Shown: positions 14,717-61,243 of the stretch, one piece after another
How positions within the stretch are numbered: position 1 is the first letter of the stretch
How the letters are laid out: each line of letters begins with the position of its first letter
Program-made: the position numbers and the translations under genes
Notes under the pieces: generated by a model
What the model was told of the DNA's origin: nothing
Database searches by the model: none
Seen by the model: only the letters and a program-made list of their open reading frames with translations
DNA from: Gonatopus flavifemur
Taxonomy: Eukaryota > Arthropoda > Insecta > Hymenoptera > Dryinidae
Assembly: GCA_018340375.1 (NCBI GenBank)
Contig: JAFFJZ010000007.1
Location: 1,984,001-2,048,000, forward strand
DNA length: 64,000 nucleotides
Direction of reading: 5' to 3'

Positions 14717-16087
14717 GATGAAACCCGAAAAAACCCGAAAAAGCCCGAAAAACCCCGAAAAAACCCGAAAAAACCTGATTGTACCCAGTGGGGGGGGGGG
14801 GGGTTTTAAAGGAAAAACCCGGGTTTTTTCCAACCCTGGAGATATATTAGCTCCAGTAATGCGAATGAAATCTCCTCGGCGTGTAGGTGTATCTTTAAAT
14901 AAATTATAGGACGCTCTGAAAAATTCTACTAATTCCCAACCTGTCTTGATAGCGCCAGTCTTGAATGCGCCATGAACTACATGAAGTCCACAAGAACCAA
15001 TATCTAAAAGATCGTGAGGATCTGGATCCGTTTCTAGTTTAATCTGCTCTTTTATAGAACGTAATACTTCCAAATTTACATTGGGCCCATCCATTGATAT
15101 TTGGAGCAAACGTTTGAAGTCAAGGCCATTTGTTTTCAATTCATCTTGCAGAGCAGATACAATATCTTCAGCTGTACACCTACTTAGAGAAGAGGACGTG
15201 AAATATCTAACTTTAACCCGATGACAATCACTACTCCAAAAACGAATATACAAATCCATTTGCGACTTCTGAGCTACTTGATTGAGGCTCTCATCATAAG
15301 CAATAACAAACCAATTGCAAGCTTTCACTTCTTTGCATAGCTCATTGTGAAAATAAGGGGCGATTCCCCATACAATACCATAAGATATTTTATCTTTTTG
15401 AAGTCTCATATTTTGAGCGATTTCGCAATTTGGAAACATCCGTTTGAAAAGTAAAACACTACTGGCGGGACTTCGAAGGGAATCATGATTCATAACACTT
15501 TGAATGCACCATAACACTTCCGTCGTGGTAACTTCATCTTTTTCAAGAAAATTTTTAAGAGCGCCAGCTCCCGAAAGACGTCGATTTGGAAGTCCTGAGG
15601 AGATCAAGGAAGCAGAAGTTGTTGGTGGAGATGTTGGGAGAGAAGCAGGAAATGATATTGCAGGTGTAGGAGTAGATGATTGATGACCAGAATTAGGACG
15701 TGGAATCCACGTGTCAATTGGTGCAGTGTGTTCAACATATTGTGCTTTTGCCTTATGTTTCTTCCCTTTCATGTGGCTGGTTAAAGCAGAACCTCCCATG
15801 GTTTCGAATGAAAATTCAGTATTGCATGAAGTACAAATTGCATAGTACTTTTGCTTTATATTCTTTTTGACCCATGGAAAATCTGACTTCCACGATGCTT
15901 GGAAACATATATGTCCGCTAATACGTCGTGAACCCATCGCCAATGATCATTTAGGAATAACAATATGGATCTGAAATAAATCTGCATAGATTAATATTTT
16001 ACTGAATATATATTATATAATAAAATGTGAAAAAATTATCAAAATAATTATAATGTCTGAGCAAGAACAAAATTGTGGTAGAATATA

Positions 16088-17603
16088 CAGGGTGTCCCAT
16101 TTTAATCTGTCACTCAGAATATTTCGAAAACGAATAGATTCAGAAGAAAATGTTCCAGGAAAAAATGTAAGAATCTGAGGGGGACATCCGTTGGTGAACT
16201 TGGCTTCGGCCTCGGATCCCACTTTCAAGGTCATCCTGAGGTCAACTCATGTTTTTTAAATGGAATCCCCTATTTTTTACTACCGGTTTAGATTCTACGC
16301 TAAAAACCAAGGAACTTTTATCTCAAACGTTTTTTCGAACCGTATCTTTTTTCACCGTATCTTGGAATCGTTGGATTATCATCCGTACCATATCACTTTG
16401 GTGCAATGTCTAACAGCTGAGGATTTCATAATAAGATTGAACTTCTGCACGTGGGCCCAACGGACAATTGGAGAAGATCCTACTTTCTCTCATCACATTA
16501 TGTTTTCTGATGAGGCAATATTTCACCATGTTGGAATTCTCAATAGGCACAATTGCCATTATTGGAGTGCTCAGAATCCTTACTGGGTCCGTACAATTAA
16601 TCATCAACACCGTTGGAGTGTGAACGTTTGGTGCGGAATTGTAGATTCCAGGATCATAGGGCCGTATTTTTCTGGAGGAAACCTGACTGGCGTGGAGTAT
16701 CTTCGTTTTTTGCATTTTGAACTCCCTGCTCTTATAGAAGACGTAAGTCTTGACATGAGATCAAGGATGTGGTTCCAACAGGATGGAGCACCTCCTCATT
16801 ACATGCGAATTGTTCGAAAATTTCTGGACGAGAAGTTTCCCAGAAGGTGGATTGGCCGTGGAGGACCTGTGCGATGGCCACCTAGGTCGCCAGATCTGAC
16901 GTCACCTGATTTTTTCTTGTGGGGTGACATAAAAAATGTTGTATTCCGTGAACCTCCAACAACACGCGATGACATGAAAGATCGAATAAGAAGAGCATGC
17001 ACAGCAATAACACCTGCTACGTTGCAAGCAACTGTAGAAACCTTTCATAAAAGAATTGCGCTTTGTCAAAGGCAAAACGGCGCTCATTTTGAACCTCTTT
17101 TGAATGCCTAATGCGTCCCCGAAGAAACACCTCCAGTTCAGACAATCGGCCCTTTTCAGGGCCACAATGATGTGTAAAGTCCGATCGCGCAACCGCAACT
17201 CCTCGTGGTGCACATTGGGTAACGCTGATGCCGACGGCAATTTCCGGGAGATGAGAAACACTCAAGAGTTGAGCATTATGTTAGACAGAATACAATCCGA
17301 GGGTTGGAGAATTCTCATTTTCTCATCAATTAGAGCGCCATCTATGGGGATTTCGAAAAAACGTTTGAGACAAAAGTTCCTTGGTTTTTAGCGTAGAATC
17401 TAAACCGGTAGTGAAAAATAGGGGATTCCATTTAAAAAACATGAGTTGACCTCAGAATGACCTTGAAAGTGGGATCTGAGGTCAAAGCCAAGTTCATCAT
17501 CGGATGTCCCCCTCAGATTCTTACATTTTTTCCCGGAACATTCCATTCTGAATCTATTCGTTTTCGAGATATTCTAAGTGACAGATTAAAATGGGACACC
17601 CTG
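16088..17603 (+). mobile_element. rosa-type (DD41D) mariner, internally deleted
   Basis: 1,516 bp, TA-flanked (16086-16087, 17604-17605). Terminal inverted repeats start CAGGGTGTCCCATTTTAATC and run for about 255 bp on each side with few mismatches, which is unusually long for mariner. It carries a transposase remnant at 16260-17111. A lone end with the same first 19 bases lies at 48774-48987, so the family has been active elsewhere in this genome. Confidence 0.88.
16260..17111 (+). pseudogene. Mariner-family transposase, DD41D, N-terminus deleted
   Basis: The 283-codon frame starts inside the left terminal repeat; only from about residue 30 (RILESLDYHPYH) is it real protein. The catalytic core is present: MFSDEAIFH (Asp84), WFQQDGAPPHY (Asp175) and SPDLTSPDFFLWG (Asp217), with 41 residues between the last two Asp, the spacing of rosa-type elements. 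The N-terminal helix-turn-helix that binds the terminal repeats is missing, apparently through an internal deletion that joined the left repeat to mid-gene. It encodes the cut-and-paste nuclease domain only, so is presumably inactive. The stop at 17109-17111 is followed by the right repeat about 240 bp later. Confidence 0.85.
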
Positions 17604-17655
17604 TATATATAGAATGATGTAAGATTCAATCAGTCTATGAGTGGGAAGAAATTCC

Positions 17656-37171: not shown

Positions 37172-37339
37172 ATGATTAAGGGGATACTAGCGTTCGTGAT
37201 TTGCATCATTAGTTGGAAGAAATGCAATCATAAGATAGAAAGACGGATCTGATACCGATACTAGGATCATCTTAACCTTTAGAGGACGGGACTGGTCCCA
37301 AAAGGGACCACCCGGGGAAAGAGGATTCTGAGTGTTTTT

Positions 37340-37835
37340 CAAGGGTGAATTTTTGTGCTGAGAACGAAAAAAATAATGAAATAGATCCAGGATGCGTCCT
37401 TGACCTTGAAAAAAGTCAATTCAAGGTCAAATTTTTTTTTCTCCATATATTGAACTCAAACTGTGTATAACCACGTTTTTTGATGCGCTGAGTACGAAAA
37501 AAATAATGAAAAGAATCCTGAATGCGTCCTGGACCTTGACAGAGGTTAATTCGAGGTCAAATTTTTTGCTCTCCATATATTGAACTCAAACTGTGTATAT
37601 CTCCGTCCTTTTATGTGCTGAGTACGAAAAAAATAGTGAAAAAAAATTCTGGATCCGTCTTTGACCTTGAAAAAGGTCGATTCGAGGTTGAATTTTCTTT
37701 TCTCTATTTTTTGCACTCGAACTGTGTATATTTACGTTTTTCGATGTGCTGAGTACGAGAAAAATGGTGAGAAAAAATTCTGGATACGTCCTTCACTTTG
37801 GAAGAGGTAATTCCACGATCCAATTAACTTATTTC
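37340..37835. repeat. Left subterminal repeat array of the piggyBac (about 4 units)
   Basis: Units of ~120 bp with GTGCTGAGTACGAAAAAAAT, then CGTCCTTGACCTTGAAAAA, TCAAGGTCAAATTTTT, CTCCATATATTGAACTC and TGTGTAT..ACGTTTTTTGATG. Each unit holds AGGTCA-type motifs in both orientations. The same unit appears inverted at 41340-42600. Confidence 0.85.
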
Positions 37836-37836
37836 T

Positions 37837-39035
37837 TCCATATTTTGACTATTCTGAAAAGGACCGTCCAAGATATGATCACCGTACCTTAGATGAATGA
37901 ACGCGAAATTTGTATATATGTATGTGGATATATATATATATATATACAGGGTGTCCCAGAACACATGTCTGACCTTTTGAGAGCATATTCTGCAACCAAA
38001 ATGCAATTTTTTCCCGTTTGGAAAGAAATTTTTGGAGGCTTCGTTCTTGAGATATGAGCATTTTTAGATTTTTTCAAAAATCCAAATAACTCAGAAGCAT
38101 TGTATACTACATACTTCAGTCTGATACAATTCGCTGAGTTGGAAAACGGCGGATCTCTAGGAAAGAAAATCAAACTATTATATCCCTATTCGTTCCGGAG
38201 CTACAGTGATTTGAAATTTTTGAGCTTCCAGCCAATCAGAATTCAGCAACTTCAAATCGCTGTAGCTCCGGAACAAATAGAGATATAATAGTTCAATTTT
38301 TTTTCTAGAGATCCGCCGTTTTCCAACTTGGCGAATGGTATTAGACTGAAGTATGTAACATACGATGCTTCTGAGTTATTTGGATTTTCAAGAAAATCTG
38401 AAAATGCTCATATTTCAAGAACGGAGCCTCCAAAAATTTTTTTTCAAACGGAAAACAATTGCATTTCGGTTGCGGGATATGCTCTCAAAAGGTCGGACAT
38501 GTGTTCTGGGACATATGCATACGTACTCAAGATGTCAAACGAACACGGGATGGGTAATTTACTTCACACACTGAACTTCTTAGGAATCCAATGTGACAGA
38601 CCCAGTAGAGCATGGAAGGTAATCGGAGCACGGCTATGAAAACCTCAAATAGTAGGTTATGCAGCTGAGGAGCGTTACCTACTACATACTAATAGCGCCT
38701 TTAGTGTGAGTATGAACGTATATGTGGTATCGTTGTATGTGTGAGCTTTAGTTCCCGACCAAGTTGTAGGCGGCGCTGGAACTCGTGTTTTTGTTTCTAC
38801 ATTATACTTTGGGTACCCTGCGGATTCATCCTTGAACCGGGTGCGCCTAATGGCAAAGAAGGGATTCCTGAGAAAATCAGTGTTTGAAGTAAATTATCCA
38901 CTCTGTGTTCGTTTGAAATCTTGGGTACATATACATATATAAATATAAATATATCCATATGAACATACAAATTTCGCGTTCATTCATCTCAGGTACGGTG
39001 ATCATAACTTGGACGGTCCTTCTCAGGATAGTTCA
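37837..39035. repeat. Inverted repeat pair around a nested MITE in the piggyBac left half
   Basis: 37837-37935 (GAAAAGGACCGTCCAAG, ATGATCACCGTACC, AATGAACGCGAAATTTG) is mirrored at 38927-39035. Further in, GTACTCAAGATGTCAAACGA near 38522 is mirrored near 38910. Between lies a palindromic MITE, 37947 to about 38512: left end CAGGGTGTCCCAGAACACAT, right end lacking the last bases, with paired AACGGCGGATCTCTAG and CTACAGTGATTTGAAATT blocks. Confidence 0.75.
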
Positions 39036-39263
39036 AGAGCATTCTCATTCGGCGGTGGTTATTTGATCAACATCCTTCTTTAGGATATTTCGCGGTTCCT
39101 CTCCACAGGTCCGGCGATAGTACCTCACGCAGGCTTTTCCAAGATATTTCGAACGGATCCTCATTTGGCTGTGGTTATTTCACCAACAGTTCCTATTAGA
39201 ACATTTGACGGTCTTCCTTCTCAGGTGCAGATCCTATTTATTCAGTAGCTGCTGTTCTATAAG

Positions 39264-40801
39264 ATGACTGACAGAGAGGCTTGGAGTAGCGGTGAATCCG
39301 AACCAGAAGAACAAGATCCTGGGAATGAAGAATTTGAAGCCATTAATTTGGAAGACCCCACCTATGACCGAACTCAAATTTTTCATGATGCGAATTTTCA
39401 CCCATCAATCAGAGATTTCGAAGGGAACTCCAGAATGAATCCTAACGCTCTTATAACGGGAAATTTGCCAATAGATTTTTTCAATTATTTTTCCGATTCT
39501 TCCCTGGTTCAAAGGATTGTAGACGAGACAAATCGTTACCATGCCCAGAATCCTCAAAGTTCATCTTCCCATATGAAAGACTGGTGCCCTTTGACCAAAG
39601 ATGAATTTGAAATGTTTCTCAGTCTCTCAATTCTCATGGGCCATGTTCGGAAAGGTGATTTGAAAGATTATTGGTCTACGGATCCTTTGCTTCATACTCC
39701 GATTTTTCGAGAAAGAATGCATCGTGATAGATATTTGCAAATTCTGCGACAATTACACTTCCAAGATAATGAAGATGATTCAGAATTTGTCAATCATCCT
39801 TCACGGAGAATGAAACCAGTGATAGACCACCTACAAAGTAAATTTTCGGCAGCTCTCATACCAGGCAAAAACCTGTGTATAGAGTATAGACGAAAGTCTG
39901 TTATTGTGGAAAGGTAGGCTTCGATTCAAACAATATATTCCGTTGAAAAGGAATCGTTTCGGCATCAAGTTGTTTGAGTTGGTAGACTGCGATACTGGAT
40001 TCATTCTAGGCTTTATTGTTTACACCGGATCAGATACTGAGTATCAAAAGTTCGGTTTAGGTGTTATTTTCATGAGGGTCATGTTATATATGTAGACAAT
40101 TGGTACACATCCCCTAGTTTGGCTGAATTTCTGCATGATCGTGATACGGGAATTTGTGGAACAGTCAAAGCAAATGGAAAGGGAATGCCAAAGCTGGAAA
40201 ACAAATTACAGCGAGGTGAAATAAAAGTCGCTCATAATTATGCTTGGATGGCAATGAAATGGGAAGATAAACGAAGTGTTCGCATGCTTACAAGTGCACA
40301 CGAACCAGAATTCTGTGTAACTGAGAAAAAAAATTATAAAACAAAGGAAGACATTATAAAGCCAACGTGTATTCATGAATACAATAAGAATATGAGCGGC
40401 ATTGATAATATTGATAGACAGCTCTCGATAACGGAAACAGTGCGAAAAACAATGAAGTGGTATAGGAAGCTTTTTTCCACCTTATCGATTCATGCCTGTG
40501 TAATGCTCATGCTTTATACGGACTGAAAAATCAAGAACAAACATCTTTTCCTTCATTTTGTTCACAAGTAGCTGGGGGATTAATGAAACTGGAGTCTCCT
40601 GAAAACATTCCACGTGACGAACTCTGTGCCACTCGATTACTTGGTCGCCACTTCCCCCAATGAACTACAAAACGAAGGTGCCAATTGTGTAGTGTGCGTA
40701 AAAAAACATCTCGAACGAACTACATATGCTCCATTCACGATATACCTCTATGCATAACGCCATGCTTTGAAGAGTACCACACTAAAGTGACATTGCCATG
40801 A
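39264..40801 (+). pseudogene. piggyBac transposase, frameshifted
   Basis: The start is a good ATG (MTDREAWSSGESEPEEQD, acidic head). The catalytic region follows the piggyBac pattern. The segment C-I-D-E-S is disrupted by a 7-bp duplication (AGTATAG at about 39883-39889) just before the first catalytic Asp (39889-39891). A second shift between about 40050 and 40094 precedes D-N-W-Y-T-S (second Asp). The third acidic site lies in MSGIDNIDRQLS. Two more shifts, near 40526 and near 40665, precede a cysteine-rich C-terminal tail (CQLCSVRKK, then ICSIHDIPLC) ending at 40801. Expected full length is about 510 residues, close to the family. At least four disruptions make it inactive. Confidence 0.85.
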
Positions 40802-40817
40802 GATTGATTGATTCAAG

Positions 40818-41101
40818 ATCACATGAGGGGCAAGGGGATTCACGGTGATGAAGCACCCCGATGTGAGAGGCAAGGGGACTCACGGTAATGAAGCACCCCG
40901 ACGTGGGAGGCAAGGGGACTCACGGTAATGAAGCACCCCGTCGTGAGAGGCAAGGAGACTCACGGTAATAAAGCACCCCGACGTGAGAGGCAAGGGGACT
41001 TACGGTAATGAAGCACCCCGACGTGAGAGGCAAGGGGACTCACGTAAATCGAGCACCCCAACGTGAGAGGTAAGGGGACTCACGAAAAACAAGCACCCCG
41101 A
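40818..41101. repeat. 40-bp minisatellite, about 7 copies
   Basis: The unit is ACGTGAGAGGCAAGGGGACT followed by CACGGTAATGAAGCACCCCG, with few differences between copies, directly after the transposase stop. Copies abut without spacers, so it is not a CRISPR-like array. Confidence 0.9.
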
Positions 41102-41339
41102 AGGGATCAAATTTCCGCCGCGTCCACGTCGCTGGTCCTGGGTCATGCTGAGAGCGAACAGTCATATAATTGCTTTGGTTTCTTGATAAACTGTATCTGC
41201 AGCTGAAATATATTTTCCGAATTTTGTACTGTTTTTGTCGTACCCAGATCCTCAACGAACTTCAAGATGTCTTGGGTCGAAATGAGGGAAACAATATCCC
41301 ACCTTGGAGTGTTTCCATGTAGAATCAATAATACTTCCA

Positions 41340-42600
41340 GGACTTTTCACAATTTTTTCCTCACTCAGCACATCAAAAAACATAGATGTAAGAGGTGAGA
41401 GTTCAAAATATGAAATAAATGAATAAATTGGATCTTGGAATTACCTTTTTCAAGGTCAAGGACGCTTTCAGGATTTCTTTCCTAATTTTTGTCGTACTCA
41501 GCATTTCAAAAAAACTACGTACACAAAATGTGAGTTCAATATAAGAAGAAAAAGGACCTCGACCTTGAATTGACCTTTTACAAGGTCAAGGCTGCATCCA
41601 GGATCTTTTTCATCATTATTCTCGTACTCGACAAATCAATGAACGTCGATGTACACAATTTGAGTTGAATATATGAAGAGAAAAAAAATTCGACCTTAAA
41701 TCGACCTTCTTCAAAGTCGAGGCTGCATCCAGGATTTCTTTCATCATTATTCTCGTACTCAGCACATCAAAAAACGTCGATCTACACCGTTTGAGTCGAA
41801 TATATGGGGAAAAAAAATTCGACTTCAAATCGACCTTTTTCAAGGTCAAGGACGCATCTTTGATTTTTTCCACCATTTTTCTTGTACTCAGAACATCAAA
41901 AAACGTGGAGATGCACAGTTTGAGTTCAATATATGGAGAAAAAATAAATTCGACCTTGGATCGACTTTTTTCAAGGTCAAGGACGCATCCTCGATTCTTT
42001 CCACCATTTTTCCCTGACTCAGCACATCAAAAAACGTAGATACGCACAGTTTGATTTCAATATATGGAGAAAAAACAAATTCGACCTTGGATCGACCTTT
42101 TTCAAGGTGAAGGACGCATCCTGGATTTTTTTCACCATTTTTTTTGTACTCAGCACATCAAAAAACGTGGATATGCACATTTTGTGTTCAATATATGGGG
42201 GAAAAAAAATTTGACCTTGAATTGACCTTGGATCGACCTTTTTCAAGGTCAAGGACGCATCTTTGATTCTTTCCACCATTTTTTCCGTACTCAGAACATC
42301 AAAAAACGTATATATGCACAGTTTGAGTTCAATATATGGAGAAAAAACAAATTCGACCTTGGATCGACCTTGGATCGACTTTTTTCAAGGTCAAGGACGC
42401 ATCCTTGATTTTCTTCACCATTTCTCTCTTATTCAGCACATCAAAAAACGTAGTTATGCACAGTTTGAGTTCAATATATGGAGAAAAAACAAATTCGACC
42501 TTGGATCAACCTTGGATCGACTTTTTTCAAGGTCAAGGACCCATCCTGGATTTTTCCCACTATTTTTTTCGTTTTCAGCGCAAAGAATTATGATGAAAAA
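41340..42600. repeat. Right subterminal repeat array of the piggyBac (about 10 units)
   Basis: Units of ~126 bp (later ones ~143 bp through an extra GACCTTGGATC block) in the opposite orientation to the left array: CACCATTTTTCTTGTACTCAG, CATCAAAAAACGT, GTTTGAGTTCAATATATGGA, TTCGACCTTGGATCGA, TTTTTCAAGGTCAAGGACGC. The frames of 80-158 codons running through this stretch are products of the repeat. Confidence 0.88.
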
Positions 42601-42784
42601 CACCCAAAAATCATTTCACACATTTTTTTGCATTGACCTTTCTCTTCCGGACGGGACTGGTCCCAAAAGGGACCACCTGTTTGGTCGGAGGTTGGTCGTG
42701 AGTTATATATTTGATTTATGCATCAAATACACGATTTGAAAGAGGTCGATTTGTACTGAAAATCCCCCGTCCTCTAAAGGCTAA

Positions 42785-44156: not shown

Positions 44157-46366
44157 AAACAAAACTCCCAACTGTCCGTTATTAATGACAGTAACATCAA
44201 ATTTGAAACATATTGTTAATATTCTACTTGTATACACAGATGATTCACTTTCGATCTTGAAAATGCTAAATCTGAAGAATACAAAACAACTCAAGCCTCA
44301 CGAATTAGAAACTTATAGTGCAATATGCAAATTAAAGCGTACGGTTGAACGTTGCCAAAGAAGGAATGTGGATCTACAGAATAGGTTGAAGGGGGTACGG
44401 AAATTTATTGATAGTAATCATTTCGAGGCATTTTTAAACCTTCCAGATCCAGTGAAGAACTCTTTTATTTGTCAAATCCGCAATAGTAAACTCAATAAAT
44501 ATGGTAGAAACTTTACAAGACAAGATAAGATATTAGCGTTAGCTCTTTAACGAAGTCCGGGTGCTTTTAAGTTTTTCTCTCAAATATCTATCCTTCTCTC
44601 GATTGAAACATCAAGAAAGTTTATGAAACTCGTACCTCTGAAACCAGGAATTTGTGATAACATTTTCAACGATTTGAAAACTCGCGTTTCACTTTTCGAA
44701 GACGAAGAAGATAAGTATTGGCGTTCTTCTCGTAGATGTAATGGCTTTGAGTCCTTTCTTACATTATAATTCAGCTGCTGATTGTATTGAGGGATTTGTT
44801 GATCACGGTTTTGGTGTTCAACCACAAATTGCTGACCATGCAGCCGTATGGATGCTAAGAGGCATGATTGGTACAAAACCGTGGAAACAACCAATTGCTT
44901 ATACATTTTCAGAAGGTACCACCCCTTGGTGGGATACTTGTAACATGTTCAAAACTATTGTTAGGAAAAGTCGCGAGATAGGATTAAATATCATTGCATT
45001 TGTTTGTGATCAAGGGGCAACCAATGTTGAAGCGGTAAATACTTTAACTTCGAATTCTAAGCGTAATGCACTTCGTGAAGATGTTATACTCAAAGACGAT
45101 ATCATTGTTATTGATAATCAAGAAATTATTCCTATTTTCGATCCTCCTCATCTGCTCAAATGTATTTGGAATAATTTATTGACTAAAGATTTAAAATTTG
45201 TATATCAAAATATAAAACGTCTTGCGAAATGGACTCATGTCGAAGAGGCTTATGCCATTGTTCGGAGTCACAGTGCTATGTTCAAACCTTTGATGAGTGA
45301 ATTAACAGATTTTTACGTGATTCCTAATGAAATTAAAAAAATGGAAGGTCAATTATGTACTCAAGTATTTAGTAATACAGTTTCAACTTATATATATCAA
45401 AAGGCATTTGATCGCGCTAAAAGTCTTTGTGGAACGAAGCAGTTACCAGCTGAAGCTCTAGACACTGCAATTTTATTCAAATTGTTTAATGATTCATTTG
45501 ATTCCGTGAATGGAGGATTTATAACAAAAGATGAAAGAACTTCAAATAAGAACACAATTGAAACCACAGATGAAGGAAAGATTCGGGATGAAGGTATCAA
45601 AGTCATTTCTAGCATGGAATACGTGCGTAGGAAAGAAAGAGATAATCCAAATCCAATTGTCTTTAGAAATTGGATTCTCACTTCAAAAACTTTCAAAATC
45701 CTCAAATCGCGTTTAAAAGAATTAGATTTCAGAACATTTGTTGGTAGACATTTTAATCGGGATCCATTAGAAAATTTCTTTGGGCAAATTCGACAACACC
45801 GCGTTCGTAATATGCGTTGCACTGCACAACAATTTTCAGGATTTTACAAGACTGCTCCTTAATGCATTTTCAAACGGAAGAATTCTTGGATCTGATTGCG
45901 AAACAGATCCTTCTGGATATTTAATGGGCTTGGGAAATTTCATCACAATTCCTGTTGAAGAAATGAATCAGAATAAAGTATATTGCTCAGTTGATTTAAA
46001 ATTAAAATTTGATAGGAATGCTCCTCTAGGCGAGGCAGATTTAAACGATTTGAAGAACTTCCTCACTCAAGATCATGAAATTGAGGAATTTTGTTCAAGC
46101 TGTCATATATGTGCACATAATGCAAAAGTCCACGATGGAGATATGCTATATAGTATGGTTCAATTAACTAATTTATTTTTTCATGCTATGCCTCATATAC
46201 GTCATATGCAGTCTTTATCAAATTTATTACATGATTTAATCATTCCAAACGAAGTCACAAAGATACGTTTTGATTTCGAAAATTGTGCACATAGTGACAT
46301 ATTGAAACAAACAATAATAAAAAATTACGTTCATTTGGTAAGCATTAGATACATGTTGAAAGGTTA
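44157..46366 (+). pseudogene. P-element (THAP9-type) transposase pseudogene
   Basis: From the coiled segment (ICKLKRTVERCQRRNVDL) through RQDKILALALYKRSPG-type sequence, KLVPLKPGICDNIF, MALSPFLHYNSAADCIEGF, FVCDQGATN, IFDPPHLLKCIWNN and DPLENFFGQIRQHR to the C-terminal region, motifs follow P-element order. Decay: TAA at 44548-44550 where Tyr is expected, a one-base insertion near 44717, and a frameshift near 45845 after which the protein continues to 46366. The N-terminal THAP DNA-binding domain is not seen; the hAT element at 43638-44148 and other repeats occupy the place where it should be. No P terminal repeats were identified. Confidence 0.82.
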
Positions 46367-49414: not shown

Positions 49415-50240
49415 ATAGGTTTTTGGGGTCTTGAATCGAAAAATATAATTTTTTTGACCCCAGATTATGAGCGAGCGGGAAATTTCACATCCAGATATAC
49501 TTCCACGTTTTAATCAAAGTCATATCTGCAGGTCATATGGAGGTCATCTGTAGGTCAAATCCTTCTTTTGAATGTTTTGTCTGATATTAGGTTGGGAAGT
49601 CTCTTGGATTAGGTGAGTTTTGTGTTTTTGGGGTCGCTGATCACGATGTAGGGATCTATATGACCCCATCACATCTGCATCAAGGTCAAATGAAGGTCAA
49701 ACATCTTGCATCGAAAAATATAATTTTTTTGATCCCAGATTATGAACGAGCGGGAAATTTTACATCCGGATATACTCTCAACTTTTTACCAAAGTCATAT
49801 CTGCAGGTCATATGGAGGTCATCTGTAGGTCAAATCCTTCTTTTGAATGTGTTGTCTGATATTAGGTTGGGAAGTCTCTTGGACTAGGTGACTTTTATGT
49901 TTTTGGGGTCGCTGATCACGATAAAGGGGTCTATATGACCCCATCACATCAGGATCAAGGTCATTTGAACGTCAAGTGGAGAAAAAACCATCGAAAAAAA
50001 CTGAAAACATTCATGCACATGTTTTTGAGGTCGCTGAATCCGAATCAGGCATTCATCCACACTTTGGATCTATCCTAGAGGTCATTGACGGTCATTTCAA
50101 GGTCATCTTGAAGTGTTCTTGAGATAAAAATGTGAAGTATGGTTCGAAAAACCTGGAAAAATTCCTGCCTATGTTTCCGAGGTCTACGAATCGGAATATG
50201 AGCTCGGGTCACCTACATCAGGTCAGGTTCAAGGTCATTC
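49415..50240. repeat. ~275-bp tandem repeat with AGGTCA arrays
   Basis: 49436-49710 is repeated at 49711-49985, and a diverged third copy starts near 49988. Each unit contains ATATAATTTTTTTGA.CCCAG, three AGGTCA motifs spaced by five bases (AGGTCATATGGAGGTCATCT then GTAGGTCA), and TTTTGGGGTCGCTGATCACG. The third copy keeps AGGTCATT and CAAGGTCAT units. The frames at 49250-49887 run through the repeat and are not supported. Confidence 0.85.
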
Positions 50241-50290: not shown

Positions 50291-52575
50291 CATTAGGGTG
50301 GGCCGAAAAAACTCAACTTTTTCTTCTTGAGTCGCTATACCGCGGAAAAGTTGCGATTTGGAATGACAAAAAATATAAAAAAAAATCAATCAAAAATATT
50401 GATGTCTTCCGGTCGTGCAAAGCCCCCAAAGTTCATAAAAATCGTTAAAAATCCACAATCTCACGTGAATTTTCGGAATAAGTAGAGATATTAGGATTCG
50501 AACGCTATAGCTGTAATTGATCAATGATGAAATCATCGTGAACAATTGTGGACAATCACCGAAATCATTCAATGCATTCAGTTCACCCATTAGCATGAAA
50601 TTCATGCGGAATATTGAGGAAGCAAGTGCGTGCGTGCACTGAAAAAAACAATGTAGCTGAATTTGAGTCCGAGTCCATTCTGTAGTTACTATAACTGTAT
50701 TATGACCATAAGAATGTGCGATAGATATGACCGAACTCGTGTGGATCCCTCAGAGAGAGAAGAAAAATGGAATTAGGGATGGGGCCGAATCAACGAAAGA
50801 ACAAGTCAACTAAAACATTGGTTGAAAAGGAAGAGATGTATAATGTATGATGTCTTATTCTTTCCAACTAATGGTTTCGTACATTTGGTTTTCCGTTGAT
50901 TTGGCCTTCATCCGGAATTAGTATTCCTTTCTTCATTTAATACAATGTATAGAATGAAGAAACCTTTATTAGTCTGAGTGTTTTCTGTTAAAATATTTTA
51001 TCTCTTTCCTACATGGCTCTTTTCATCTCTCTTATTTATTGCCTTCATTTACTCAATTCTAATTGATTGTCTCTGTTCTATGTCTTTGGGATTATGAATG
51101 TTGCACTCACTTCCACAGTAACCTCAATGAGAACATGACTTCCGCTACTACAAAACTCAAATTCGATTGCATTCTCTTCTCAATGTGTGATTGCCGTGTT
51201 TATTAATCTGAAAATCATAAGAAATTCCTGTTTTGTTACTACATAATATAAATATATTACTCCGTGAAAAAATTGAGAATATTGACCCAGCTCGGGTTGA
51301 GGATGGTAAAATATGATTGACCCCTGGGCGCCAAAAATGTACAAACGTCCTTGCTCCTGCCTTCTTTTGTTATCATTATGCCATTTTTGCAGAAGCTCTC
51401 ATGCGTTCACATCTTCATGTTATTTTACGTTTAGTGTTGTGCAGTGTTGTGTTGTGAAGTTTTTGAGATACATAATGGCAGCCTCAAAGGAAATGATCAC
51501 AAGAAATGTCTTTGAGTGCCCTATATTTGATAAACCCAGAGATTTTGTGCAAAATATACTTCCCACGCATGAAGACGTGATTCGATGCTGTTTCCAAGAA
51601 CAGTATAATTTATCTGTAAGGTTAATAACAAAAGTGTCAGTTTTTCAAACGTGGCTGATAAAGTAGCTGATAAAATGAAAAGTTTGTTCGAGAAAGCATG
51701 TATAGTATAGATGCTTTTTCAAACGAACTTTTTATTTTATTTTTTATTTCATCTATAGTATTTTACCATCCTCAACCTGAGCTGGGTCAATATTCTCAAT
51801 TTTTTCACGTAGTAATATATTTATATCATGTAGTAACAAAACAGGAATTTCTTATAATTTTCAGATTATTAAAAACGGCAATCACACATTGAGAAGAGAA
51901 TGCAATCGAATTTGAGTTTTGTAGTTACGGAAGTCATGTTCTTATTGAGGTTACTGTGGAAGTAAGTGCAACATTCATGATCATGAAGACATAGAACAGG
52001 GACAATGAATTAGAATTGAGTAAATGAAGGCAATAAATAAGAGAGATGAAAAGAGCCATGTAGGAAAGAGATAAAATATTTTAACAGAAAACACTCAGAC
52101 TAATAAAGGTTTCTTTATTCTATACATTGTATTGAATTAAGAAAGTAATACTAATTCCATTTTCCTTCTCTCTCTGAGGGATCCACACGAGTTCGGTCAT
52201 ATCTATTGCACATTTTTATGGTCATAATACAGTTACAGTAACTACAGAATGGACTCGGACTCAAATTCAGCTACATTGTTTCTTTCAGTGCACGCACGCA
52301 CTTGCTTCCTCAATATTCCGCATGAATTTCATGCTAATGGGTAAACTGAATGCATTGAATGATTCCGGTGATTTTCCACAATTGTTTACGATGATTTCAT
52401 CATTGATTAATTGCAGCTATAGCGTTCGAATCATGATATCTCTACTCATTTCGAGAATTCACGTGGAATTGTGGATTTTTACTTATTTTTATGAACTTTG
52501 GGGGCTTCGCGCGACCGAAAGACATCGATATTTTCTATTGATTTTTTTTGTATATTTCTTGTCATTCTAAATCAT
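50291..52575. mobile_element. 2.2-kb palindromic element carrying an exon-like frame
   Basis: The left end CATTAGGGTGGGCCGAAAAA is a typical DNA-TE terminus; the mirrored right terminus seems lost after 52575. The arms (about 50362-51310 and 51760-52572) are near-identical inverse copies, for example GAATTCACGTGGAATTGTGG near 52456 against its mirror near 50452 and CTCAATTTTTTCACG near 51795 against its mirror near 51265. The left arm alone has a further MITE (about 50776-50912, ends GGCCGAATCAACGAAA). The 450-bp centre (51310-51760) holds the exon-like frame. Confidence 0.82.
51475..51707 (+). CDS. Exon-like fragment in the centre of the palindrome
   Basis: ATG at 51475 opens 47 codons (MAASKEMITRNVFECPIFDK to EQYNLS) and ends exactly at a splice-donor-like GTAAGG (51616-51621), phase 0. 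In another frame, 51633-51707 reads VSFSNVADKVADKMKSLFEK and stops, as if a second exon or a frameshift followed. The pattern (NILPTHEDV, then VADKV..LFEKA) resembles, from memory, the N-terminus of a repeated insect protein family whose function I do not know. Only the 5' part is present, so it is a captured or truncated fragment. Confidence 0.4.
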
Positions 52576-52708
52576 GAAGTAGGAGCTGTCGGCCGCGAGC
52601 TGTCGACCGCAGGGGTTATGTTTTGGCTGGGACTGTACCTGAACAAAATGACCGAACTATTCGGATATTTTTTCCATAAAAACATGCTAAAATGAGATAA
52701 TGATGATA

Positions 52709-52827
52709 CACGGAAAAAAAAATGATGTTGGATTTACAACATTTCGTTCGATCACCATAGAAACCCCTAATGTTTCTATGGAGATCGAACGAAACATTGT
52801 AAATCCAACATCATCTTTTTTTCCGTG
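52709..52827. mobile_element. Near-perfect palindromic MITE, 119 bp
   Basis: CACGGAAAAAAAAATGATGT is mirrored at the right end; the arms continue through TGGATTTACAAT.TTTCGTTCGATC to a loop near 52765. TA at 52707-52708 and 52828-52829. Related by its end to the MITE at 36103. Confidence 0.88.
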
Positions 52828-55800
52828 TATCTAAAGATATGAATTTGCAGTATTCAAGACGAGGAATTCGAAAATGGAATATTTTTCACGATACGAGGTC
52901 GTTTTCATAGGATTTTTTGCAGGAAAACGAGGAGTTATATATTGGTTCTAACGAATTTCATCACCTACTGATGACACGACGTCCGATTCGGAGGATAAAA
53001 TACATTAATTCTTATAGGATTTTGTCTGAGGAATCCGATGGTATATGATTCATTTTGGTACGCGGCCGTTCTCATGGAGTTTACGTCGAGAGAAGGGGAG
53101 ATTTTTGTCAATTTCCACAGAATTTGCATGAATTTCGTTATTTAAAGACAAGTCGACGTCTGATTCTTGAGGTAAAATCTATGGATTCTCATGAGGAATT
53201 GTCTGCAGAATCCAGTGATATACAGCTCATTCCGGTACGCGGCCGTGTTCTTGATTTTTCACGCCAAAAGTCGTTGCATGGTATTTGACGGAATTATCAA
53301 TACATATGCGAATTCTACCATTAGCTGCAGGGTTCTCGTTCGAATGGAAGAATGGGATGCATCAATTCTCATAGTAAATCCCCCAAGGAATCCAATAGTG
53401 TATGGCTCATTCCGGTACGCGGCCGTTTTCATGGAGTTTCCGTCGAGAGAAGGGGAGATTTTTGCCAATCTCCACAGAATTCGCATGAATTCCGTTATTC
53501 AAAGACAAGTCGACGTCCGATTCTGGGGTAAAATCTATGGATTCTTATGAGGAATTGTCTGCAGAATCCAATGATATACGGCTCATTCCGGTACGCTGTC
53601 AGGCTCTTGATTTTCCACGCCAAATGTCGTTGACTGGTATTTGACGGAATAATCGAGATAATGCAAATTCTTTCAATGGCTGCAGGGTTCTTGTTCGATT
53701 GGAAGAATGAGACGCATCAATTCTTATAGTGAATTTTTCAAGGAAACCAACGGTGTATGGCTTATTCCGGTACGCAGCCGTTCTCATGGAGTTTCTGTCG
53801 AGAGAAGGGCAGATTTTTGTCAATGTCCACAGAATTTGTATGAATTTCGTTATCTAACGACAAGTCGACATCCGATTCTTGGGGTAAAATCTATGGATTC
53901 TTATGAGGAATTGTCTGCAGAATCCAGTGATATACGGCTCATTCCGGTACGCGGCCGTGTTCTTGATTGTTCACGCCAGAAGTCGTTGACTGGTATTTGA
54001 CGGAATTATCAATACATATGCAAATTCTTCCATCGGCTGCAGGGTTCTCGTTCACTTGGAAGAATGAGATGCATCAATTAATATAGTGAATTTTCCAAGG
54101 AATCCAATGGTGTACGGCTCATTCCGGTACGCGGCCGTTTTCATGGAGTTTCCCTCGAGAGAAGGGGAATTTTTTGTCAATTTCCACAGAATTCGCATGA
54201 ATTTCGTTATTTGAAGTACAATCTATGTATTTTGATGAGACTTTTGGCATGAAAAATCAAGAACATCGCATCGTACTGGAATGAGCCGTATATCACTGGA
54301 TTCCTTGGACGATGTCCTATAAGAATTGATGCATCAGATTCTCCCAATCGAGCGACAACCTTGCGGCCGATGGAAGAATTCGCATACGTATCAATAATTC
54401 CGTCAAATACCAGTCAACGACTTTTGGCGTGAAAAATCAAGAACACCGCGGCGTACCGGAATAAGCAGTATATCGCTGGATTCCGCAGACAATTCCTCAT
54501 AAGAATCTACAGATTTCACTCCAAGAATCGGACGTCGACTTGGCTTTGAATAACGAAATTCATGCAAACTCTGTGCAAATTGACAAAAATCTTGCCTTCT
54601 TCCCACGGAAACTGCATGAAACCGGCCGCGTACCGGAATGAGCCGTACACCATTGGATTCCTTGGACGATTTCCTATAAGAATTGATGCATCTCATTCTC
54701 TCAATCGAACGAGAACCCTGCAGCCGATGGAAGAATTTGCATAATCTCGATTATTCCCCCAAATACCAGCTAACGCGTTACGTGAAAAATCACGAACCTG
54801 ACAGCGTACCGGAATGAGCCGTATATCACTGAATTCTGCGGCCAATTCCTCATAAGAATCCATAGATTTTACTCCAAGAATCGGACGTCGACTTGTCTTC
54901 GAATAACGAAATTCATGCAAATTCTGTGCAAATTGACAAAAATGTCCCCTCCTGTCGACGAAAACCCCATGGAAACGGCCGCGTACCGGAATGAGCGATA
55001 CACCATTGGATTCCTCGGACAATTTCCTATAAGAATTGTTGCATCAGATTCTCCCGATCGAACGACAACCTTGCGGCCGATGGAAGAATTCGCATATGTA
55101 TTGATAATTCCGTCAAATCCCAGTCAACCACTTTTGGCGTGGAAAATCAAGAACACGCCCGCGTACCGGAATGACCCGTACACCATTGGATTCCTTGATA
55201 AATTCACTATAAGAATTGATGCATCTCATTCTTCCAATCGAACGAGAACTCTGCAGCCGATGGAAGAATTTGCATATGTATTGATTATTCCGTCAAATCC
55301 CAGTCAACCACTTTTGGCGTGAAAAATCAAGAGCCTGACAGCGTACCGGAATGAGCCGTATATCATTGGATTCTGCAGACAATTCCTCATAAGAATCCAT
55401 AGATTTTGCTCCAAGAAGCGGACGTCGACTTGTCTTTAAATAACGAAATTCATGCAAATTCTGTGCAAATTGCCAAAAATCTCCCCTTCTCTCTACGGAA
55501 ACTCCATAAAAACGGCCGCGTACCGGAATGAGCCATACACCATTGGATTCCTTGTACAATTTCCTATAAGAATCGATGCATCTCATTCTTTCAAACGAAC
55601 GAGAACCCTGCAGCCGATGGAAGAATTTGCATTATCTCGATTATTCCGTCAAAAACCAGTCAACGACATTTGGCGTGAAAAATCAAGAACCTGACAGCGT
55701 ACCGGAATGAGCCGTATATCACTGGATTTTGCGGCCAATTCCTCATAAGAATCCATAGATTTTGCTCCTAAAAGCGGACGTCGACTTGTCTTCAAATAAC

Positions 55801-56212
55801 GAAATTCATGCAAATTCTGTGCAAATTGACAAAAATTGATCAACAAGACGCCATGCGAGTTTGACGTGCATTTGCTGCTCCGACAATTTTTTCATCCGTT
55901 GCTTTTAATAGTGTCTATTTAACTGCTATTCAGTTTGCTCGGTATAGTGTTTTTTACTGCGCATCTCGTGTAGTATTTCACTTTCCGGCTCGTGCCTTAT
56001 CTTCCACGTTTTCAATGATTTGAAATCATCATTTGTCGAAAAGTTTCGTCTCACGGATACAGTAGCCTAACATACATAGTGTCACTTCCATTGCCGTTTC
56101 GTTGTGTGAAACGAAAACAATAAACAGACCATTTCTCGTGTATGTGTGTTGTGTGTTACTAGTACCAGTGATTATCATCTGCTCTACGTTTTGATCTTTT
56201 CATATATTTAAA

Positions 56213-57049
56213 ATGTCCCAACAAGATAAGAAAATCTGTGAAGGTTGTACTGAACCTGTCTCTCATCCTGTGAGCTGTCATACGTGTAATATTCATTCGC
56301 ATCCAGGATGTGTGCACAGATGTAATCACCCGTGGAGTGTGAACAAACTCATCGATTGTTCAGATGCTTCTTCACATCAAATTGATTCTTCTTTGGCAGA
56401 AGACTCGTCTCTGCTGGTGAATATAAAGGAGCTCATCCATGAAGAATTTTCGAAATTTCGTTATGAAATGGCTCGGGTTTACGAGGACAAAATAGTTTCT
56501 CTTAGTCAAACTATTCTTTCCCTTACTGCGAGATTGACTGAAGTTGAGAACAAACTCGACATTCCGAAACAAGACCGCGATTCTCGTGATCTTGGAACGA
56601 TTATTCATGAAGTCAACGAGCGACAGAAGCGATCTCGCAATATTATTATTGTTGGTATTGATGAGACGCCGGACAATCAACAGCGAAATGATGCAGCGAA
56701 GGTGAAAACACTGCTCCGAAATATTAATCCTTCCGTTCATGATAATATTAGGTTGCATAGAATCGGTGAAAAGGTTGCGAACAAACACAGACCTATTTGT
56801 GTTCCTTTTCCATCATCTCAGGATGTTATAAATATCTTGAAACGTAAATCTAATCACAATGGACCGTTTAAAATTTATCAAGATCGAACTGTTCAAGAAA
56901 GAAATTATTTAACCACGTTACGTGCGGAACTCAAGAATCTGATCGATGGTGGTGATTGCAACAAAACAATCAAGTATATTAATGGATTGCCAACGATTGT
57001 TGACACGCGTACTGTGCCCCAGAAAAAAAACCTATACCTCACCCTTTGA
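56213..57049 (+). CDS. LINE ORF1 protein, 278 aa
   Basis: The N-terminal PHD-like zinc finger (CEGC at 9-12, CHTC, H-x2-H-x2-GC, HRC) is followed by a predicted coiled coil (about 85-120, KIVSLSQTILSLTARLTEVE). After it comes an RRM-like segment beginning RSRNIIIVGI and containing LHRIGEK and RPICVPF. This is the ORF1 layout of CR1/Jockey-group LINEs, an RNA-binding chaperone that packages the element's RNA. The frame is intact. It overlaps the start of ORF2 by four bases (ORF2 opens at 57046; ORF1 stop TGA at 57047-57049), so ORF2 may be made by termination-reinitiation. Confidence 0.8.
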   Translation: MSQQDKKICEGCTEPVSHPVSCHTCNIHSHPGCVHRCNHPWSVNKLIDCSDASSHQIDSSLAEDSSLLVNIKELIHEEFSKFRYEMARVYEDKIVSLSQTILSLTARLTEVENKLDIPKQDRDSRDLGTIIHEVNERQKRSRNIIIVGIDETPDNQQRNDAAKVKTLLRNINPSVHDNIRLHRIGEKVANKHRPICVPFPSSQDVINILKRKSNHNGPFKIYQDRTVQERNYLTTLRAELKNLIDGGDCNKTIKYINGLPTIVDTRTVPQKKNLYLTL

Positions 57050-59889
57050 TATACTATCAGAATGTTCGTGGTCTTCGTACTAAACTTCAAGATTTGCAAA
57101 TTTCACTTTCATCTCTTACTTCCACGTATGATGTCATTATCTTCTCTGAAACCTGGTTAACGGATAACATATCTGATGAAGAATTGTCCTTCAATGATTA
57201 TGTCTTGTATCGGTTGGACAGGAGCAGGCGCACCAGTGTTTTTTCTCGAGGAGGTGGTGTGCTGATTGCGGTCAAAAAGTATTTGAATAGTGCATTGGTT
57301 GATTTGCCGCCTACTAGCGTGGAACATATTCTTGTCAAGTTGCAGTTTAATTCGAAGTCTGTTTTGATTGGAGCAAGTTACTTCCCCCCTGCCTCATCAT
57401 CATCTCTTTACCTTGAACATTGTGTTTCTCTGGCCGAGGTACTGTGTCAGGATTATGATTCTTCAATTTTCCTCTTCGGTGACTACAATCTTCCGCATGT
57501 GGTTTCGCGCAATGACGACTCTTCTCTAACGGCATCGTTTCGTCCTGGTGTGACACTGAATGAAAGGTCTTCGGTGGAGATTTTGACTCACTATTTCAAC
57601 TACTTTGGTTTATATCAAAAAAACAATATTCACAATGATTTCAATGGTATGCTGGATTTGATTTTTACCACCGATGAGTATGTTGAAACTATTAGTCCGG
57701 TTGATTACCTCCTACATTGTGATGCTTATCATCCCCCTATTGAAATTAGATTGTATTCTCTTTCATTGAGATCTTTGTCTTGTACCGACACGTCCCGGTA
57801 TAGTTATAAATTGGCTGATTTTTTTTCTATACGGCAGCATTTGAATCAAATTGATTGGGATTTGGAGTTGGAATGCATGGATGTAAATAATGCTATTAGT
57901 TTTTTGTATGATCAACTTTCTGTGGCTATTGAATTGTACGTTCCGAAAACATTGATCAAAAGATCTATTCATCCTCTTTAGTTTACTCCTGAGCTCAAAA
58001 AATTAATTAGAAGAAAGAAAGTTGCCCATATGATTTACAAATCGTCTTATAGTCGCGGCGATTATTCAGCGTTCTCTTTCTTGCGTGCTCAATGTAAATC
58101 ACGAGCTCGGGCTTGTGATTCGAATTACATTCGCCAAGTTGACACTAATATTCAAAAGGATGTTAAATCTTTTTGGAATTTCGTCAACAGTAAGCGTTCA
58201 TTTAATGACTTACCCAGTACTATCATGTTAAATAATGTAGTTGCTGACTCTACAGCTGGAATGGCTAACCTTTTTGCTGATCACTTTCCATCGGTTTTTG
58301 CTTCACATAACTCGGTTAATGTTAATCATTCTAGACATGATGTGTCATTTAACATGCTTTCTGATTCGGCTATTACCATAGGAGAGATCTACTCTGTTCT
58401 CGATTCGTTAGATACGAGCAAGGGCCCAGGATTTGATGGCCTTCCGCCGTTGCTGTTCAAGTCTTGCAAATTTATTCTTTCTCGAGCGCTTTGGATTATC
58501 TTTAATAAATCTCTTTCTTCTGGATGTTTCCCTGCTGAATTGAAAACGAGCCTGATCTCTCCTATTTTCAAGCATGGTAATAAACGGGATGCTAATAATT
58601 ATAGACCTATAAGTATTTCAAATGTTATGTCTAAGATTTTTGAGCGCGTGGTTGTTGGCAAGATTACTCCTTTGTTGTCGCCTCTTATTATCTCGGAACA
58701 ACATGGTTTCATGTCGATGAGGTCTACTACTACGAATTTGGCTGCTTTCTGTAATTACACCGCCATTGCGCTGGAGAATAACTCACAAGTTGATGTTATT
58801 TACACTGATTTCAGTAAAGCGTTTGATACTGTATCTCACAGCGTTCTTCTATCTAAGTTGAGTAGCTTTGGAATATCTGGTAATCTAAAACTTTGGTTCC
58901 AGAGGTACTTAACTGATCAAGTGCAGATGGTAAAAGTTCGGAACTTTTTTTCTGAACCGATTATACCTTCTTCGGGAGTGCCTAAGGGATCCCACCTTGG
59001 TCCACTTTTATTTTTGCTATTCATAAATGACATTGGGCAGGTTCTTAATGATTGTGATTCCCTGGTATTTGCTGATGATCTAGAAAGCTTCAAGAACATA
59101 AAATGTCTTGCGGATGTTGATTACTTACAGTCAGTATTATCGACATTAGGTTCTTGGTGCACCCGTAATTCTCTGCATCTGAACTTAGAAAAATGCTGTG
59201 TAATGAGAATCTCGCGGTCAAGGAATCCTCTCATATTCTCCTACAAGATTGCAAATGTTACATTGAATACTGTTAAATCTTATGTTGATCTCGGTGTAAC
59301 TATAAATGATGAATTGGATTTTTCTGAGCATTCTGTGAAAGCTTGTGGTACTGCGCTGAGGAATCTCGGCTTCGTCAAAAGATTTTCTAGTGATTTCAAA
59401 GATGTTAGGTCATTAAAAGTACTATATTCCTCTTCAATTTGACCACATCTTGAATATGCATCCCCTATCTGGTCTCCGTACTTGAAGAAGGATATTAGAA
59501 TGATTGAGAGTGTGCAACACAAGTTTCTACGCTTTGCTGCTCTTAGAATAGGCTGCCCTATGAGATATTCTGACCATGATTACTCCAGAATTCTTCACAG
59601 AATGAATTTAACTACCCTCGAAGAGCGGAGACGAATGAATGATCTCCTATTCCTTTTTAAATTGATTAATGGTTTTCTTGATTGCGAGTCATTGCTGAGT
59701 AAAGTAAATTTTAACATCCCCGGTAGACCAGTTAGGAGAGCGCTTCTATTTGAACCTGTACAATTCAATTCTAGATTTGGAAATTATGATCCGATTTCTC
59801 GCATTTGTGAATTAGCAAATAATTTCGATCGGTCGGTGGAATTGTTTGGTGTTTCCTTGAATCGGTTCAAACTGTCGGTCAATGCATGA
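57046..59889 (+). pseudogene. LINE ORF2: endonuclease and reverse transcriptase, two nonsense codons
   Basis: One continuous frame of 947 codons. The endonuclease (about 1-235) has YYQNVRGLRTK, IIFSETWL, LFGDYNLPH and CDAYHPP. The reverse transcriptase has NNYRPISISN, YTDFSKAFDTVSH, GVPKGSHLGPLLFLLFINDI and FADD (the FADD box at about 59079). It ends LNRFKLSVNA. There is no ATG at the head; the first codons start where ORF1 stops. TAG at 57979-57981 and TGA at 59440-59442 interrupt it and there are no frameshifts, so this copy died recently. It would nick target DNA and prime reverse transcription in the nucleus. Confidence 0.87.
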
Positions 59890-61243
59890 CCATATTGTGA
59901 TTGTATTTCATGCGTCTTTGGACGCTGTCTTGTATTGACTCTGTATTTACTTCTCATATCAAAGGGTGCTAACCCGTGTTTTGCAATAAAAAAAAAAAAA
60001 AAATCTCCCCTACTGTCGACGAAAACTCCATGGAAACGGCTGCGTACTGGAATGAGCCATACACCATTGGATTCCTTGGACAATTTCCTATAAGAATTGT
60101 TCCATCAGATCCTCCCGATCGAACGACAACCTTGCGGCCGATGGAAGAATTCGCATATGTATTGATAATTCCGTCAAATACCAGTCAACGACTTTTCGCG
60201 TGGAAAATCAAGAACACGGCCGCGTACCGGAATGGACCGTATATCACTGGATCCTGTAGACAATTCCTCATAAGGATCTATAGATTTTACCCCAAGAATC
60301 GGACGTCGACTTGTCTTCAAATAACGAAATTCATGCAAATTCTGTGCAAATGGACAAAAATCTCCCCTCCTGTCGACGAAAACTCAATGGAAACGGCCGC
60401 GTACTGGAATGAGCCATACACCATTGGATTCCTTGGACAATTTCCTATAAGAATTGATGCATCTCATTCTTTAAATCGAACGAGAACCCTGCAGTCGAAG
60501 GGAGAATTTGCATATGTATTGATTATTCCGTCGAATACCAGTCAACCACTTTTGGCGTGGAAAATCAAAAACACGCCCGCGTACTGGAATGAGCCGTATA
60601 TCACTGGATTCTGCAGACAATTTCTCATAAGAATCTATAGATTTCACTCCAAGAATCGGACGTCGACTTGTCTTCAAATCACGAAATTCATGCAAATTGT
60701 GTGCAAGTTGACAAAAATCTCGCCTTCTTTCGACGAAAACTGCATGAAAACGGCCGCGTACCGGAATGAGTCGTACACTATTGAATTCTTTGGACAATTT
60801 CCTTCAGGAATTGATGAATTTCAATCTCTGACTCGGACGACGTCCTATCATGAGATAACAATATTCACCGAAATCATGTAGAAGTTGTTAGGAATGTCGC
60901 TTTTTATTGACAAAAAACCCACGAAAACGGCCGCGTACCAAAATGAATCATATAACATCGGATTCCTCAGACAAAATCCTATAAGAATTGACGCATTTTA
61001 TCTTCCGAATCGGACGTCGTCTCATCAGTAGGTGATGAAATTCGTTAGAACCAATATATAACTCCTCGTTTCTCTGCAAAAAACGAACTTCCACTCAAAC
61101 TTCACGTGATAGATAAGACATCGTCGAGTGAACACCATGTACTTGTGATGCGTCATAAGGGCAGTTCATGGACTCATCATCGATAGACCAAAGCACACTT
61201 TTCTAATCTACCAAAACAAGTCCACCATGATGGATTTTCATGG

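Follow-up and report, generated by a model that had tools for sequence, protein, structure and literature searches.

Structure of the foldback element in the window

The window analysed here is a stretch of 64,000 nucleotides of the hymenopteran Gonatopus flavifemur (Dryinidae), corresponding to positions 1,984,001 to 2,048,000 of the forward strand of contig JAFFJZ010000007.1. Near its right end it contains a block of tandem monomers arranged in two inverted arms, which very probably belongs to a family of non-autonomous foldback DNA transposons, as a copy that has been interrupted and has lost one end, with the steps of movement and maintenance proposed below. The parts of this copy are listed in Table 1.

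Table 1. Parts of the foldback copy and of the sequences nested in it (window coordinates).
Feature	Position	Strand	Details
Nine bases TTCTAAATC, place of the left target duplication	52565..52573	.	Flush with the tip; right partner lost with the truncated right end, duplication unverifiable here
Outer left end, tip ATGAAGTAGGAGCTGTCGGCCGCGAGCTG...	52574..52708	+	Differs from the family tip at 2 positions; alignment to other copies made by eye
Nested palindromic miniature inverted-repeat transposable element (MITE), CACGGAAAA...CCGTG	52709..52827	.	TA duplications 52707-52708 and 52828-52829
Remainder of the outer left end, into the end monomer	52828..52952	+	69 end matches begin at 52828
Left arm, 7 monomers	52913..54221	-	Starts 53063, 53240, 53420, 53596, 53775, 53952, 54132
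Centre GTACAATCTATGTATTTTGATGAGACTTTTGGCATGAAAAATCAAGAACATCGCA, family junction	54216..54270	.	Cut B monomer against A-monomer tail, without unique loop
Right arm, inner part, 9 monomers	54239..55836	+	Starts 54271 to 55697; last monomer split by the retrotransposon
Nested retrotransposon without long terminal repeats (non-LTR)	55837..59998	+	PF03372 endonuclease, PF00078 reverse transcriptase, poly-A 3' end
Right arm, outer part, 6 more monomer starts	59999..61083	+	60042, 60222, 60399, 60579, X 60756, E 60933

When the arms are divided at the conserved core, 22 monomers are obtained, of which 7 belong to the left arm and 15 to the right. Two types alternate, A of about 180 nt and B of about 177 nt, to give a 357-nt unit, and this period was recovered independently with Tandem Repeats Finder. 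Mean identity between A and B is 55%, and within each type it ranges from 77 to 95%. The left-arm monomers are read on the minus strand, in the order E, B, A, B, A, B, A from the outside, and the direction reverses between 54221 and 54239 (about 54.23 kb). An earlier description made from the sequence only (the sequence-only reading) had proposed about twenty monomers of about 178 bp in inverted arms, a unit of about 357 bp and a change of direction near 54.22 kb, all of which agree with these data. The end monomers, 53063 and 60933, share 94% identity, and their identity to the remaining 20 is 56-64%. The A/B alternation slips once, with consecutive A monomers at 54981 and 55161, and monomer 60756 in the outer right arm is of a further divergent type without a left-arm partner. 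Inverted arms of up to 621 nt at 90% complementarity were found by an inverted-repeat search, and they cannot be a product of chance. The arms are unequal in length, 1.3 kb on the left and about 2.7 kb on the right when the retrotransposon insert is discounted.

Scans of the window with Rfam (gathering threshold) and for tRNAs gave no matches, and neither viral contigs nor the contigs of prokaryote genomes contained an exact match to the monomer pattern. A coding origin of the monomers, whose lengths are multiples of three, was discarded because the variable sites had no consistent excess at third positions (54/45/60 for A and 40/33/27 for B, with one frame split). Nucleosome phasing was also abandoned, as the dinucleotide autocorrelation of the right arm is weak; with monomers of 180 and 177 nt, there was no need to invoke the nucleosome repeat length, to which the sequence-only reading had likened the monomer.

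The span 52900..61085 had been taken as repeat throughout. About half of it is not, since the retrotransposon at 55837-59998 lies inside the right arm; the MITE, the leftward extension of the element and the loss of the right tip had also escaped notice. The retrotransposon consists of ORF1 (first open reading frame, 56213-57046), an endonuclease part (57004-57978) and a reverse transcriptase part (57982-59439), with in-frame stops after each of the last two, and the interrupted right-arm monomer picks up again at 59999, past the insert.

The mirrored ends at 52913 and 61083, previously considered as the ends of the element, are not its termini. The left end is at 52574, outside the mirrored end at 52913. 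Homology with the other fetched copies extends outward to 52828 in 69 end matches (L028, the duplicate locus, accounts for two) and, beyond the 119-nt MITE, goes on out to 52574, where the single match to the family tip in the window is found. The outer left end stops at the TA that holds the MITE. The MITE region is self-inverse at 52705-52831; this insertion is missing at the same place in the other 69 ends compared, and it shows 97.5% identity over 119 nt to a MITE in another copy, L052. The right end is cut off at 61083, with the loss of the outer 0.2 kb (approximately) and the tip, so that the window copy has one tip only. A 4-bp TGCA duplication within the TTTTTTGCA/TGCAAAAAA palindrome was rejected as marking the element ends, because other copies place the tip 0.34 kb further out.

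A long inverted-repeat element with arms 93-95% alike occupies window positions 50355-52573. The foldback element was probably inserted into the right arm of this element, because it starts exactly where that arm stops, and the far side would have been lost later.

Dispersed copies and target duplications

The host genome (636 Mb in 402 contigs) was searched with a 601-nt query, which yielded 291 candidates, 40 of them scored; 40 stretches were fetched, one of which is the window copy. As the query began in the outer end, copies without this end are under-sampled. The 23-nt tip ATGAAGTGGAAGCTGTCGGCCGC has 448 matches genome-wide with up to 2 mismatches (223 forward and 225 reverse), and the reversed-pattern control gave 0 and 0. 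At two tips per copy, the family comprises roughly two hundred copies, a figure that counts no copies with lost or diverged tips.

Target duplications were determined in 28 copies with two tips: the first fetch supplied 24 of them (without L028), and L049-L052 are the other four. A 9-bp duplication was present in 17 of them (14 exact and 3 with 8 of 9 positions) and an exact 8-bp duplication in 6, and the remaining 5 (L019, L022, L029, L050 and L051) had none; the flanks of L022 agree at 7 of 9 positions. When the left flank of one copy was compared with the right flank of another, 0 of 756 comparisons gave a duplication. Dispersal, common tips and 8-9 bp target duplications demonstrate that the family is mobile. 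The foldback form and the possible mobility put forward in the sequence-only reading, which likened the architecture to the FB elements of Drosophila, are thus borne out by dispersed copies with the same ends, duplications in 23 of the 28 two-tipped copies and the 448 tip matches, and the family is neither a single copy nor confined to simple arrays. Two points weigh against this description of the window copy and of its family: the window copy has one tip, so its own target duplication is not verifiable, and duplicate contigs may inflate the tip count, as with L027 and L028, which are the same insertion on two contigs.

For this reason of duplication, L028 was dropped from the counts of arm length, tip likeness, monomer likeness, duplications, CGGCCGC motifs and tip units, and was kept in the 69 end matches and among the 25 copies of the first fetch. 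L029 was left out of the arm-length, tip-likeness/junction, monomer-likeness and CGGCCGC counts, and L019 out of the arm, monomer-likeness and CGGCCGC counts. In L019 one copy is apparently inserted in the arm array of another, and L029 consists of two copies tail to tail with a tip region common to both. Two consecutive left-facing ends are present in L040, with tips at 1850 and 4498, and also in L017, with ends near 2005 and 4071. The sequence beside the second tip of L040, GAATCAATG, reads as the reverse complement of that beside the first, CATTGATTC, as though an inversion had taken in half of the element together with about 1.5 kb of flank.

Family anatomy and central junction

As read by profile, two-tipped copies begin with the tip, followed by the unique end, the E monomer and B-A dimers up to the junction, beyond which the same parts return in mirror image. 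The tip of about 23 nt is followed by a unique terminal repeat of about 0.25 kb, the end monomer and a number of B-A dimers that varies from arm to arm. This order is disturbed by slips, partial monomers or extra types in L011, L026, L027, L029, L035, L038, L041, L045 and L046. Arms contain 1-14 monomers or pieces, with no correlation between left and right (r = -0.05, n=22), and total copy length is 1369-3747 bp (n=22). Such variation could be generated by unequal exchange of the 357-nt dimer, by which arms would grow and shrink. Within the tip, a GC-rich repeat of 14 nt, GAGCTGTCGGCCGC, is present once or twice.

The arms meet without loop or gene, a cut B monomer standing against the tail of an A monomer. 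This central junction was recognised, in either orientation, in 23 of 27 copies (up to 7 mismatches in 43 positions). The other four had no readable junction, the centre of L038 being rearranged and L049, L050 and L051 containing inserts. In the window copy this junction is also present, but it lacks part of the B monomer. Because this junction is common to 23 of the 27 copies, they likely descend from one founder, which would have been a single inverted dimer. Between copies, monomers that stand first from the end resemble one another more closely than monomers in general do (0.957 vs 0.937 for B and 0.927 vs 0.907 for A), which fits descent from one founder with little homogenisation inside the arrays.

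Superfamily and source of the transposase

The family is a foldback DNA transposon by its architecture and duplications: it has long inverted repeats with variable tandem repeats, and dispersed copies with constant tips and short duplications. Since the duplications are mostly 9 bp, and those of the Mutator superfamily are 9 bp (8-10 bp), the family probably belongs to the Mutator group, and a Mutator/Foldback-type transposase made elsewhere would cut at the tips and insert the copies. The authors who described Tetris and Tm1 likewise argued for Mutator from duplication length (PMC4079207, PMC3169594).

Four tip pairs of about 7 kb (L049-L052) were fetched as possible autonomous partners. No transposase partner or MULE (Mutator-like element) domain was found among the seven open reading frames scanned from them (3 of 17 in L049, 2 of 11 in L050, 2 of 10 in L051 and 0 of 6 in L052, whose six were read as monomer frames), which counts against the Mutator assignment. 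L049 holds a pol of the Ty3/gypsy type (integrase, reverse transcriptase and RNase H); L050 contains a non-LTR element with an endonuclease, together with a Tc1-type piece that scores below the Pfam cut-off, and lacks a target duplication; L051 has a 3-kb insert without assigned identity, also without target duplication; and L052 carries a non-coding inverted-repeat element. All four were rejected as partners. The nested non-coding element of L052 (L052:3061-5810) has the ends CCCAAGTAGAAA...TTTCTACTTGGG and long inverted inner arms, and related pieces were observed in L017, L025 and L041.

A foldback element moved by the transposase of another superfamily, either P-type as in Galileo or hAT, is the alternative that retains most weight, although it is unlikely. 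Six of the 23 duplications are 8 bp long, a length that hAT or P-type transposases also make and another point against Mutator. Besides, a P/THAP9-like transposase remnant (PF21787) lies within the window at 44678-45859, and Galileo is a foldback form that rides on a P-type transposase (PMC3688188, PMC2775673). On the other hand, 17 of the 23 duplications are 9 bp, so duplications of 7-8 bp, the rule in the P superfamily, are not the rule here, and those of Galileo are 7 bp (PMC2775673). The P-like remnant is not flanked by tips either, since the only tip in the window is that at 52574.

The motif CGGCCGC occurs 237 times in 22 elements (51 kb; shuffled mean 1.75), 63 times in the tips and 174 in the remainder of the elements, vs 2 occurrences in 81 kb of flanks. 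Extra transposase-binding sites are present in the arm repeats of Galileo (PMC3688188), and by analogy this GC-rich motif is a candidate transposase-binding site that may be repeated in tips and monomers. Part of its excess reflects one ancestral motif multiplied by the repeats, which detracts from this proposal.

Likeness between the arms of one element

The tip comparison included 54 tips of 27 elements; the arm-lineage means exclude L038, L049, L050 and L051. Partner arms were 0.958 alike in their tip regions, vs a mean of 0.943 and a maximum of 0.950 for permuted partners, and 0 of 1000 permutations reached the observed value. Across copies, arms on the same side of the junction were 0.947 (JJ) and 0.956 (KK) alike and those on opposite sides 0.951 (JK); as same-side arms are no closer than opposite-side arms, the two sides are not separate lineages. 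Among the variants seen exactly twice, 28 of 68 sit in both arms of one element, vs about 1.3 expected by our own arithmetic (27 of 1431 pairs), and these private variants are distributed over 12 of the 27 elements.

Several results weigh against a general upkeep of arm likeness. The K-side tips of different copies (0.956) are nearly as alike as partners; the partner is the nearest tip, ties counted, for 20 of the 54 tips; the number of tip units is unequal at the two ends in 10 of 27 copies; and the tips of L035 are 87% alike. Monomers are hardly more similar to those of the other arm than to those of other elements (0.913 vs 0.907 for A and 0.942 vs 0.937 for B). Sharing between arms is therefore real, but patchy and modest on average.

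L052 offers the plainest example. This copy, flanked by an exact 9-bp target duplication, has a MITE in each arm, at mirrored TAs of the end monomer, and the two are equal at 138 of 138 bases. The MITE is of the same type as that in the left end of the window copy, at a different place. The arms of L052 are 98.0% alike over 1484 nt and differ at 30 of these sites, in tip length and in monomer number further in. A single insertion that was then copied to the other arm is much more likely than two independent mirrored insertions, so this mirrored MITE points to arm-to-arm copying.

It is somewhat more probable than otherwise that the arms are actively held as mirror images by copying of one arm onto the other, insertions included, and that L052, with a tract of about 1.5 kb, is an intermediate caught in this process. 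The palindrome would then be a self-templating structure and not two independently decaying repeats. Copying might proceed via a snap-back hairpin or by gene conversion within the element. If so, exchange would draw on the repeat arrays as its raw material, and the arrays might also serve as a series of transposase-binding sites. Conversion between long arms has already been proposed for Galileo (PMC3573991); the idea is not new, and the mirrored MITE is an unusually direct marker of it.

Palindromes are prone to read fold-back and mis-mapping, and the mirrored MITE of L052 and the variants common to both arms could conceivably be assembly artefacts, produced by palindromic read chimeras or cross-arm polishing. 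This explanation is improbable, because L052 keeps an exact 9-bp duplication at both outer flanks, its arms still differ in the three respects mentioned, and the doubletons restricted to one element come from 12 different elements.

Distribution of the monomer outside the window

A 20-nt monomer core was found at 989 places in the 636 Mb (up to 1 mismatch). The 100 places listed are exact matches from the first contigs. They group into 32 clusters of up to 9 matches and 3.7 kb, and all 20 clusters that have both orientations run minus-then-plus, the foldback order. No long satellite array was present among these 100 places, unassembled arrays being invisible and arrays elsewhere possible, and the satellite half of the sequence-only reading finds no support there. 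That the block is a locally inverted satellite array without mobility of its own can be dismissed with hardly any reservation: the monomers are in tandem with a dimeric higher-order unit, and the window copy, its right tip being gone, has no visible target duplication, but the dispersed copies with common tips and 8-9 bp duplications refute it for the family, and the clusters listed are short and in foldback order.

Comparison with known foldback families

The FB elements of Drosophila melanogaster have a foldback architecture and tandem repeats in their arms, with repeats far shorter than those found here. No title or abstract describing the present family was among those listed by searches of open-licence papers. 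Tetris, a foldback transposon of Drosophila virilis assigned by its authors to Mutator on the basis of duplication length, is also non-autonomous, with long inverted repeats made of an outer unique domain and variable tandem repeats (PMC4079207). Its duplications are of 8-9 bp (up to 10 bp) and, likewise, no partner transposase was found. The tandem repeats of Tetris are of about 220 bp, compared with the alternating 180/177-nt dimer, and, unlike those of Tetris, the arms of the present family meet at a fixed junction without middle domain (PMC4079207). Roughly 200 copies are present here by tip count, vs three structurally complete Tetris copies, and the 100 of 989 places listed show no expansion into long satellite arrays, another difference from Tetris (PMC4079207).

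Galileo of Drosophila shares the long, internally repetitive and variable arms; exchange and conversion among arms have been proposed for it, and rearrangements occur at its copies (PMC3688188, PMC3573991, PMC2775673). Galileo was placed in the P superfamily by its transposase and makes 7-bp duplications (PMC2775673), whereas those reported here are mostly of 9 bp and no coding copy was found among the copies scanned. Tm1, a Mutator/Foldback family of root-knot nematodes, resembles the present one in its foldback-like composite arms with tandem motifs, its mostly 9-bp duplications (8-10) and its many non-autonomous copies (PMC3169594). It differs in a tandem motif of about 14 bp and in asymmetric 7-bp terminal motifs, and it has a coding member with a Phantom-type MULE transposase (PMC3169594). 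The family described here is a new one of a known kind, set apart from Tetris, Galileo and Tm1 by copy number, by a repeat that is a 180/177-nt dimer and by a fixed centre without a loop.

A family of this size in one long-contig assembly, with many clean duplications, a common centre and a readable order, makes it testable how long palindromic arms remain alike and whether foldback repeats seed satellites, and the mirrored MITE provides a direct marker of copying from arm to arm. For genome annotation, a block classified as satellite may be a transposon masked by nested insertions.

Other elements in the window

A decayed element at window positions 37276-42780 contains pieces of a DDE_Tnp_1_7 domain (39249-39914 and 40041-40523) and has the ends CCTTTAGAGGACGGG...CCCGTCCTCTAAAGG, adjoining TTAA/CTAA; from the domain and the TTAA we take it to be of the piggyBac type. 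It includes inverted arrays of tandem repeats of about 130 bp (arms 37354-37813 and 41344-42579), and represents a second superfamily with foldback-like arms within this window. An open frame of 283 amino acids, presumably mariner-like and without Pfam match, is located at 16083-17608 between 257-bp inverted repeats 94.6% alike. The THAP9/P-like remnant mentioned above carries the TNP-like RNase H domains PF21787 and PF21789. Finally, a 275-bp unit in two tandem copies (49429-49975) is rich in AGGTCA-like sites, and more of these sites were seen by eye downstream.

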